Positions 22,387 through 24,970 of a stretch of 64,000 bases of DNA are shown one piece after another. The stretch is from Candidatus Saccharimonadota bacterium (GTDB lineage Bacteria > Patescibacteriota > Saccharimonadia > Saccharimonadales > Saccharimonadaceae): positions 124,001 through 188,000 of the forward strand of contig JAFWHN010000001.1 in assembly GCA_017515205.1 (NCBI GenBank), read 5' to 3'. A program made the translations under genes and the position numbers. Position 1 is the stretch's first letter, and the number at the start of each line of letters is the position of its first letter. The notes below the pieces were generated by a model, which worked only from the letters and a program-made list of their open reading frames with translations, did no database searches and was not told the DNA's origin.

Positions 22387-22908
22387 CTAATTTGCATGTG
22401 CTTCCAAGCCAGAAACGATGCCAGAAAGTCCGCCCGAAAGAGCTGAAATGCTGTCGGTAGCAGGCGACAAAAGTTGTGCCACCACTTGAGCAATGAGCTC
22501 GTTCTTTGTCGGCATAGCCGCTAAGACTTTTACTTCGTCCTCGGTCAAAGCTTTACCAAGGTCAGAAAAACCGCCCATTAAGTTTAATGCATCATGTTTT
22601 TTAGCAAATTCTGCTAAAACTTTTGCAGGTGCAACTTCGTCATCTTGAGATACGGCATAAAGTAACTGACCGGTTAAGCCAGTTGTATCAGTATTTTTAT
22701 AAACGGCGATTTGCCCCATTGCTACACGCACTAAGCGATTCTTCACGACCTTGATTTTGACGCCAGCTTCACGCGCGTTTTTACGCAATTCCTGAAGCTC
22801 TGCTACGGTTAAACCTTGATATTTAGCATAAACCGTAGCTTTAGCGCTTGTCAAAAGCTCGGTCAAATCAGCAACCAATGTATTCTTTTTATCCTTTGAA
22901 ATTGCCAT
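22387..22908 (-). CDS. rplJ: Ribosomal protein uL10
   Basis: Anchors the L12 dimers to the ribosome. 173 residues, beginning MAISKDKKNTLVADLTELL, with the family segment TVYAKYQGLTVAELQELRKN and the C-terminal L12-binding helix. AAAGGAA lies about 6 nt before the ATG. The leader upstream carries the expected L10 autoregulatory RNA. Cotranscribed with rplL. Confidence 0.96.
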   Translation of the reverse strand: MAISKDKKNTLVADLTELLTSAKATVYAKYQGLTVAELQELRKNAREAGVKIKVVKNRLVRVAMGQIAVYKNTDTTGLTGQLLYAVSQDDEVAPAKVLAEFAKKHDALNLMGGFSDLGKALTEDEVKVLAAMPTKNELIAQVVAQLLSPATDSISALSGGLSGIVSGLEAHAN

Positions 22909-22924
22909 AAAAAGTTCCTTTGGT

Positions 22925-23035
22925 TAATTTAATATTTGGTTAGCCAACTTGTTAAATAGCGTCACCAAACTAATATGTAAGAAATATCCTCGGCGACATA
23001 ATTAAGGAATACTCCCGTCGCTGTCTTTGGTAACT
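22925..23035 (-). promoter_or_regulatory. L10 leader RNA (autoregulatory, kink-turn type)
   Basis: The 5' leader between the promoter at 23042-23050 and rplJ contains AAAGACAGCGACGG...GTCGCCGAGG. This is the AGACAGC / GCCGAGG pairing typical of the bacterial L10 leader, where the L10-(L12)4 complex binds and represses translation. The rest of the leader has further inverted segments (TTGGTGACG / ACCAAA type). Confidence 0.75.
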
Positions 23036-23041
23036 AATATC

Positions 23042-23050
23042 ATTATAACA
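23042..23050 (-). promoter_or_regulatory. Extended -10 of the rplJ-rplL operon
   Basis: TGTTATAAT on the minus strand. It predicts a leader of about 125 nt, unlike the leaderless genes around it. Confidence 0.65.
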
Positions 23051-23070: not shown

Positions 23071-23634
23071 CTAATTTAAATGCTTAGTACTGGTAAACTG
23101 GAAGATGCCACCAATGGCTGCAATACCGATTAGAATTGGCCAATAAAAAGTGTCGAAATCGATTTGTGGGAAAAAGGCAAAAATTGCTAAAGTTAAGCCA
23201 TAACTACCAGCAAGAGCGCTAGCTACAATAATAGCTGGTTTGAGCAACATTACCGCTATTCCACCTGCGGCTACGCCAATTACCCCACCAATAATCAAAG
23301 TAGTTATGTCAGTGCCAAAATACTGAACAGTAATTAACATAGTTATAGCAAAAGCAATCAAAGATACACAGACTTTTTCAATCGAAAAACCAAGCAGACC
23401 GAGCAAAAGAGCACCCGCAATCGGCAACAAATTCTGATAAAGCTCACTGCTTGCGACTTCTTGCACATTTTCGTTAATAATTGGCATCAAATAATTCATC
23501 AAATTGAGCCCAATCAAAAACCAAATAATGAAAAAAGCTATTCTTTTAATACGATAGCCAAAAAACAATACAGCTAAACCTAGAGCGATAAAAATCAGGC
23601 GCTCATATAATTCCATATTTTGAATTTCTTCCAT
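23071..23634 (-). CDS. Seven-helix membrane protein, DUF4203/TMEM198-like
   Basis: 187 residues with about 7 hydrophobic helices and short loops, including IAGALLLGLLGFSIEKVCVS and IIGGVIGVAAGGIAVMLLKP, a glycine-rich helix pattern like the DUF4203 (TMEM198) family. No catalytic residue stands out and the function is unknown. The start is ATG 23634: TGTTATAAT (23641-23649) ends 6 nt before it. A longer reading back to 23757 would run through the structured element and is rejected. Confidence 0.65.
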   Translation of the reverse strand: MEEIQNMELYERLIFIALGLAVLFFGYRIKRIAFFIIWFLIGLNLMNYLMPIINENVQEVASSELYQNLLPIAGALLLGLLGFSIEKVCVSLIAFAITMLITVQYFGTDITTLIIGGVIGVAAGGIAVMLLKPAIIVASALAGSYGLTLAIFAFFPQIDFDTFYWPILIGIAAIGGIFQFTSTKHLN

Positions 23635-23640
23635 AAGCTT

Positions 23641-23649
23641 ATTATAACA
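23641..23649 (-). promoter_or_regulatory. Extended -10 for the DUF4203-like gene (sets its start)
   Basis: TGTTATAAT, 6 nt before ATG 23634; just downstream of the T-run of the structured element. Confidence 0.6.
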
Positions 23650-23659
23650 TACGAAAAAC

Positions 23660-23765
23660 AAAAAAGTGTCTTTGGGGACGGGGTCGCTCCGGCCCGTCGT
23701 CACGGGCGGAGCGCCCCTCGAACCTCGGTCGTAACCTCCGGATCGCCCCAAAGACACGATTTTTG
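23660..23765 (-). terminator. GC-rich three-way-junction RNA ending in a terminator
   Basis: A perfect 12-bp outer stem (23666-23677 with 23746-23757, GTGTCTTTGGGG pairing with CCCCAAAGACAC) encloses two inner hairpins. One is long (GGGG-CGCTCC-GCCCG at 23680-23696 with CGGGC-GGAGCG-CCCC at 23703-23717, 6-nt loop). One is short (CGATCC...GGTTCG, about 23718-23745). On the minus strand the outer stem is followed by TTTTTTG, so it terminates rplA. Its G+C content is far above the surrounding DNA. It may be a plain terminator with an insertion, or a small structured RNA. Confidence 0.7.
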
Positions 23766-23780
23766 TTTTCTATAATATAG

Positions 23781-24860
23781 TTAGTTGTACAGATTCTCAA
23801 TTTGGATCGAAGGACCCATAGTTGTCGTCATATAGACAGATTTGACATAGGTGCCTTTAAGAGAAGCTGGTTTTTGAGCTTTCAAAGAGTTAAAGAACGC
23901 ATTGGCGTTTTCAACTAGTTTGTCAACTCCAAACGATACTTTACCAATCCCAATATGCACAATTGCTTGCTTATCAACGCGATATTCAACTTTACCAGCT
24001 TTAGCTTCTTTTACAGCTTTAGCAACATCCATCGTGACAGTACCAGCCTTCGGATTAGGCATCAAGCCTTTAGGCCCTAATAGTCTAGCATATTTACCAA
24101 GCTTTGGCATGTACTGCGGAGTAGAAATCAAAACATCAAAGTCAATCGTGCCCTTTTCGAGACGCTTCAAAAACTCTTCGTCTTCGGCGATATCAGCACC
24201 AGCAGCTTTCGCGGCTTTGCAAATGTCGAGTGGTGCAAACACTGCTACCTTTACAGATTTACCGTTACCATTAGGAAGAACCAAAGTGGTGCGAATATTT
24301 TGGTCGGCTTGTCTCGGGTCTACACCAAGACGTACGTGAATTTCTACGCTTGCATCAAACTTAACTGGGTTAGACTTAATAGCTAAGTCAGTAGCATCTT
24401 TGAGAGAATATACTTCACCTTTTTTGATTAATTTAGCAACCTCTTGATATTTTTTGCCTCGGCGCTCGATCTTAGGGCGTGTAACAGGAGCAGCACCCTT
24501 CGGTTTAACAGTAGCTTCCTCAGCAGCACGTTCTTTTTTGCGCTCTTGGCGTTCCTCTTCAGCTTTAACTTCTTCAATATGTTTTTTGGATTTTTTACCA
24601 GACTTTGCAAAAGTTTCTTTAGTCTCATCGATATGCTCTTTAGCTTCTTCAATACGTTCTTTGGCGTCTTCTTTCACAGCTTCTTTGACACCCTCTGCAA
24701 TGCTATGGGCTTCCTCTAAGTTGTCTTTTACCTCTTTCGCGGCTTTTTCAACTTTTTCCTTCACTTCGGCCACTTTTTTAGAGACTTCAGCTTTAATTTC
24801 TTCCTTAGTTTCTTTGACCGCTTCAGCAGCCTCCACCTTAGTTTCTTTGGCTTTTGCCAT
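23781..24860 (-). CDS. rplA: Ribosomal protein uL1 with a long N-terminal extension
   Basis: L1 stalk protein that moves deacylated tRNA out of the E site. 359 residues; bacterial L1 is about 230. The canonical part starts near residue 133 ([20 protein letters not shown]) and contains the signatures [20 protein letters not shown] and [15 protein letters not shown]. The preceding 130 residues are almost only A, E, K, V, D and I in heptad-like order, a charged amphipathic helix like LEA or apolipoprotein repeats, with no hydrophobic signal. The start at 24860 follows AAAGGA. The -10 at 24919-24927 gives a leader of about 50 nt, possibly the autoregulatory site. Confidence 0.93.
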
Positions 24861-24918
24861 CGTATCCTTTCCGTGGTGATAACGAGCAGATGCTCTCCCA
24901 ACCTTAATTATTTGCCAT

Positions 24919-24927
24919 ATTATAACA
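24919..24927 (-). promoter_or_regulatory. Extended -10 of rplA
   Basis: TGTTATAAT. The leader to ATG 24860 includes a GAGCATCTGCTC hairpin and an AAAGGA ribosome site. Confidence 0.6.
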
Positions 24928-24947
24928 AATTTACGTTTAAAAAGCAA

Positions 24948-24970
24948 GAAAAAAGGGAGCATCCGCTCCC
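24948..24970 (-). terminator. Intrinsic terminator after the hypothetical gene
   Basis: GGGAGC-GGAT-GCTCCC stem followed by TTTTTT on the minus strand. It separates the hypothetical gene from rplA. Confidence 0.8.

Follow-up and report, generated by a model that had tools for sequence, protein, structure and literature searches.

The 3' end of rplA (ribosomal protein L1) lies in a window of 64,000 nt, the whole stretch of DNA that was analysed, from the Saccharibacteria genome G000. After rplA come a folded element, the gene of a small membrane protein and the leader of ribosomal protein L10 (RF00557). The rplA ORF as listed comprises 23781–24962 on the minus strand, including an N-terminal extension, and its 3' end is located about 10 nt before the element. 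The downstream small membrane-protein ORF is listed at 23071–23757 on the minus strand with a GTG start inside the element. This start is an artefact; judging from the sequence the true start is likely an ATG near 23636, located behind a TATAAT-like box. The L10 leader before rplJ (22899–23048, minus strand) is an ordinary one.

The whole element, consisting of an arm, a three-way-junction core and a second arm, extends over 23653–23770, as delimited by a covariance model, the fold and the arm length in 159 copies. Its core strand is the minus strand, the same as for rplA. The covariance model (R1, see below) matches the window copy at 23671–23753 on the minus strand with 91.4 bits (E = 1.9e-22). 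Read along the core strand, the 5' arm of the outer stem (23746–23770), which is rich in A on the minus strand in its outer part, is followed by hairpin 1 (23719–23745; CGGAG-GTTACGACC-GAG with a UACG loop and a GGA/GA internal loop), hairpin 2 (23680–23717; 16 pairs with a conserved CCCGTGACGACGGG tip and a single bulged C) and the 3' arm (23653–23677) with a T-tract at its end. Both hairpins were assigned from fold and alignment, the 3' arm from sequence and fold. On the plus strand a T-tract located 3' of the outer stem (23758–23770) is a candidate reverse terminator by its sequence.

A preliminary description of this DNA had pointed to a perfect 12-bp outer stem closing two hairpins, to a G+C content strikingly above that of the surroundings, and to T's on both sides of the stem. 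All of these features were found again. The 12-bp stem pairs 23666–23677 with 23746–23757 and the larger hairpin has 16 pairs. The G+C content is 64% in the 100-nt interval holding the element and about 70% in the stretch itself, as compared to roughly 30–45% around the interval and to about 40% in the DNA around the stretch, and the T-runs at the 3' side read T6GT5 on the minus strand (in the direction of rplA) and T5GT4 on the plus strand. Only the size of 92 nt had to be corrected: the A/T tracts are also paired, so that the unit in the window comprises about 118 nt. The predicted minimum free energy is −67.5 kcal/mol for the plus and −72.9 kcal/mol for the minus strand with z-scores of −7.5 and −8.1, respectively, and none of 200 shuffled sequences was equally stable.

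Like intrinsic (Rho-independent) terminators the element has, at the end of rplA, a GC-rich hairpin with a T-tract immediately behind it; it differs from them by its three-way junction and by a core that is common to insertions in coding genes. Because a stable hairpin is followed by T6GT5, the window copy very likely ends rplA transcripts as an intrinsic terminator. Among 29 relatives the rplA gene ends in a plain terminator of the AAAATAGCCC..GGGGCTATTTTT type in several and in a copy of the element in five, the remaining relatives having other hairpins or none at this position. In genome G361 the inner arms at the rplA site are the same as in the window copy and the core is inverted, this counterpart thus lying the opposite way relative to rplA. 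Two other species (loci L170 and L171) carry a different palindrome at the same rplA site (AATAAAAATTACAACAG...CTGTTGTAATTTTTA, inner GCGAG/GACGAGC), which possibly represents a second family of palindromic elements.

Distribution and anatomy of the element family

A search for further copies, as proposed in the preliminary description, was productive. BLAST located the element at five places in the window's genome (the window copy and four more) and in 27 of 60 relatives, all belonging to the same genus. With the covariance model R1, which was built from an alignment of 33 copies, the number of matches rose to about 1,400, distributed over 110 of the 118 genomes of the genus, with 1 to 39 matches per positive genome and 17 copies in the window's genome. 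Two genomes that are each at least 90% complete (G115 and G121) gave no R1 match under strict filters. Outside the genus, matches across the order were found only in the sister genera g32 and g42 of the same family; the other families sampled in the order had no R1 match. The matches listed in a pattern scan of GTDB were all from Candidatus Saccharibacteria, many of them from the gut of goat, sheep, cattle, yak and deer. Scanning GTDB with an exact pattern that included the 12-bp outer stem of the window copy gave no match, because the arms are not common to the copies. No copy was detected in IMG/VR or in the phages and plasmids searched. A comparison with Rfam, likewise proposed beforehand, yielded no matching family (no match above the gathering score), and in the open-access literature we found no relevant account of such repeats in Saccharibacteria or Patescibacteria. 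The element apparently belongs to a family of short, folded DNA elements that had not been described before.

In g32 we noticed inverted pairs of copies with a distance of 60–200 nt between them (L092 1501-1725, L094 1221-1582, L098 1501-1739), the arms being near-identical in two genomes; these pairs may represent an older form or the source. Genome G016 (L031) has two almost identical copies with the same arms at a distance of about 670 nt in the tsaD region, suggestive of a local duplication or an assembly artefact. In one case (G124:C1, L231 18020) a contig end falls inside a copy. Palindromes of the element may break assemblies, so that copies may be undercounted.

Including the arms the elements have a median length of 119 nt. 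In 159 distinct copies the outer stem comprises about 26 bp, 85% of them Watson-Crick; this fraction amounts to about 70–93% at positions 6–25 from the junction and to about 57–72% beyond position 28. For the core we evaluated an ungapped alignment of 50 copies, in which 88% of the cells of the 36 three-way-junction pairs are paired, compared to 73% after shuffling. Covariation, by which the preliminary description had proposed to judge the fold, speaks for it: the score in 50 copies was 0.393, whereas shuffled alignments reached 0.141 and slid structures no more than 0.135. Watson-Crick pairs alternate with tandem G.A pairs in the outer stem (columns 12-13/86-87) and in hairpin 2 (columns 50-51/71-72).

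The two arms of each copy pair with each other despite their locus-specific sequence. For copies that have 100% identical cores but lie at different loci, some of them in different species, the identity of the outer arms was only about 53% with a baseline of 41–47%, which rules out that the arms travel unchanged with the core. Copying of the arms from nearby DNA was also rejected, the mean best match being 16.2 in the surrounding 2–3 kb and 15.9 in other loci.

Location in genes, folding strand and orientation

By automatic count 113 of the 159 copies are located inside read-through ORFs of at least 150 aa (61 sense, 52 antisense), at least two of which, the window copy and L128, are counted only since a start codon falls in the arm. 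The other 46 copies split no gene, and several of these start directly where the gene upstream has its stop codon. About 70% of the copies are in frame within conserved genes on either strand; not one of the 159 was seen to interrupt a gene. The host genes, named from a reading of the translated sequences, include lepA, polA, uvrB, gatA, argS, priA, mnmA, truB, der, ileS, tsaD and gyrA. The lepA site is permissive, since LepA proteins without the insert have a short variable linker at this position and since in the two genomes checked, G103 (L413) and G129 (L414), stops split lepA at the linker site. Together with further lepA matches in which the protein is interrupted or split at this linker, this suggests a two-piece LepA in some species. 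Splicing or bypassing of the insert was considered, but the reading frames of the coding copies run through the element without a stop, which favours its translation. We infer that insertions survive only in gaps between genes or where the frame stays open.

Mismatches in the stems are distributed unequally between the strands. On the core strand G.T outnumbers A.C (118 vs 42) and G.A outnumbers C.T (175 vs 10), counts that take related copies as independent, and copies antisense to the host gene keep the bias (43 vs 12). Moreover, the predicted stability is higher for the core strand than for its complement in 149 of 155 copies with RNA parameters and in 150 of 155 with DNA parameters. It is the core strand that folds, also when it is antisense to the host gene. 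Since mismatch bias and stability hold with antisense copies included, the folding strand is characteristic of the element rather than of the host mRNA.

The orientation of copies is shared within a contig: 96 of 108 belong to the majority orientation, with 76 ± 2.9 expected. In three related genomes the core strand coincided with the strand of negative GC skew in 20 of 20 stretches, coding-rich or coding-poor alike, these stretches being partly orthologous and not fully independent. In an independent test with 20 further 20-kb stretches from eight genomes, including the sister genus g42, 33 of 37 copies obeyed the same rule (p = 1e-6). The core is mostly located on the C-rich strand of the replichore. 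In bacteria the G-rich strand is generally the leading strand. We assumed the same arrangement here, in agreement with the location of the ribosomal genes of the window on the G-rich minus strand, and the core strand is presumed to be mostly the lagging strand. The window copy breaks the rule, its core being on the G-rich strand. The family as such, its in-frame insertions, the locus-specific arms and the orientation rule go beyond the single-sequence view of the preliminary description.

Change at fixed sites and possible explanations

In nine orthologous pairs from three genomes, which are about 94% identical around rplA, the element diverged by 2.1% and the flanks by 7.9% (p = 6e-13); for the arms alone the value was 2.9% (p = 2e-5). 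Between close relatives the element thus changes about four times slower than its flanks. Such conservation in place is higher than expected for a dead selfish copy, and host function or templated repair may therefore contribute.

Four candidate pairs of filled and empty sites were considered, three of which were excluded because the second genome had other palindromes or terminators. In the clean case G127 has a whole element of about 121 nt between two divergent genes (G127:C8:24853) and G080 has none. At this single clean empty site no target-site duplication was visible, and the arms did not match the empty site, so that a derivation of the arms from the target finds no support there. At the lepA site the genomes G000, G119, G361, G387 and G003 have recognisably related arms, and core type and even orientation differ. 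Together with the flip at rplA this pattern indicates that old sites inherit their arms with the locus and exchange or flip their cores; gene conversion could be an alternative for the movement of cores. Around the element we observed an apparent recombination import between G124 and G080/G127. At L227/L229 and L232/L235 the place of the element is taken in close relatives by palindromes or terminators unrelated to it, which gives the impression that hairpins are replaced over time at fixed sites.

Neither of the two enzymes looked for is supported as a driver. Y1_Tnp was present in only 5 of the 118 genomes of the genus and absent from the window's genome. RVT_1 was present in 70 of 118, but absent from G000 with its 17 copies and from G119 with 39 copies. 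Template switching can create, maintain and repair hairpin stems (PMC8794818), and host replication with template switching is a candidate for making the arms; template switching alone would not produce the pattern of G.T and G.A.

We consider it somewhat probable that the window copy is one of a set of dispersed, non-autonomous, mobile palindromic elements of about 120 nt, occurring in one Saccharibacteria genus and two sister genera as sampled. The core strand would act as a folded single strand, presumably as ssDNA at the replication fork and less likely as RNA, and would spread and be exchanged in a manner coupled to replication. Template switching at the fork might re-make or perfect the arms, and selection on the fold might keep them. 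At rplA the window copy may have replaced a plain terminator and would now end the transcript. The earlier suggestion of a foreign repeat captured as terminator fits with the dispersed copies, with relatives having either a plain terminator or a copy at the site, and with the T-runs on both sides. More tentatively, the elements may constitute a new class, a replication-coupled mobile hairpin: the folded core would move or be exchanged at the fork in single-stranded form, for the most part on one and the same strand, would be given or would keep locus-specific arms and would be tolerated in frame in essential genes, driven by some enzyme or by host replication alone.

It is rather unlikely, in our estimate, that the hairpins are instead resident at fixed permissive sites, with arms kept complementary by template switching and cores homogenised and flipped by gene conversion, which may also follow the uptake of DNA from other species. 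Such residence would account for the vertical inheritance of lepA arms while cores swap and flip, for the inverted core at rplA and for the apparent import around the element between G124 and G080/G127, and stems can be made and maintained by template switching (PMC8794818). However, the clean gain of a whole element in G127 relative to G080 argues against it, as does a copy number varying from 0 to 39, and templated repair cannot yield tandem G.A pairs or an excess of G.T over A.C. The same range of copy numbers weighs on the idea of a host-functional ssDNA site with strand polarity, used in replication, fork pausing, chromosome organisation or DNA uptake. We regard this as improbable: although orientation tracks GC skew in most genomes, purifying selection acts in place and almost every genome of the genus has the element, sister families are without it, G115 and G121 (each at least 90% complete) had no match under strict filters, and a location in essential genes is costly for a host site.

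The preliminary description had further proposed a structured RNA released from the rplA transcript or a regulatory junction. A trans-acting RNA or riboregulator of this kind would agree with the RNA-like covariation and the tolerance of G.U, but it becomes very unlikely given that copies are located in many unrelated genes, often antisense, that almost half of the coding copies have their folding strand antisense to the host gene, that there is no tie to one operon and that Rfam has no match. Least of all do we expect the element to be no more than an intrinsic terminator of rplA that is unusually large and works in both directions. The hairpin with T-runs on either side, the plain terminators that several relatives have at this position and the higher frequency of T-runs in intergenic (33%) than in coding copies (6%) all point to termination, yet the same core occurs in coding genes and in more than 100 genomes. 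The copies in coding genes refute termination as the full explanation; it is likely a local role.

Rickettsia palindromic elements (RPE; Ogata et al. 2000, 2002) and Wolbachia palindromic elements comprise about 105–150 bp, are palindromic with a long stem-loop and are located in intergenic regions as well as in frame in conserved protein genes (PMC2229807, PMC10969869). The Saccharibacteria element resembles them in its median length, which is inside the RPE range, and in its location both intergenic and in frame in conserved protein genes. For RPEs, terminal inverted repeats of 12 bp have been reported, whereas here the arms are locus-specific and only the central core is common; the replication-linked orientation, the exchanged and flipping core and the host phylum also differ. 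The element is best read as a protein-coding palindromic element of an RPE-like kind that is not an RPE, the comparison being one by description.

MITEs, ERIC, YPAL and RUP are likewise short, non-autonomous, stem-forming repeats, and the present element differs from them in having no common terminal inverted repeats, no target-site duplication at the single clean empty site and no parent transposase (among Y1_Tnp and RVT_1, which were looked for). With REP/RAYT and IS200/IS605 it shares strand-specific hairpins and a replication-linked orientation, IS608 targeting the lagging-strand template (PMC6006769). In contrast to these systems, Y1_Tnp is absent from the window's genome and from 113 of 118 genomes, and the core sequence is on the C-rich strand. 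Inverted repeats kept inside coding genes, as in the Saccharibacteria element, are described for mitochondria of Nematomorpha (PMC6649704); the abstract of that study describes no common mobile core, and both arms there encode conserved protein.

Palindromic elements in frame have so far been a rarity of Rickettsia, Wolbachia and few others. With about 1,400 copies in more than 100 genomes, together with a filled and an empty site, flips and core swaps, their spread and the persistence of their stems become testable, and the orientation rule points to replication. The family also suggests that essential proteins of bacteria with very small genomes carry long foreign insertions.
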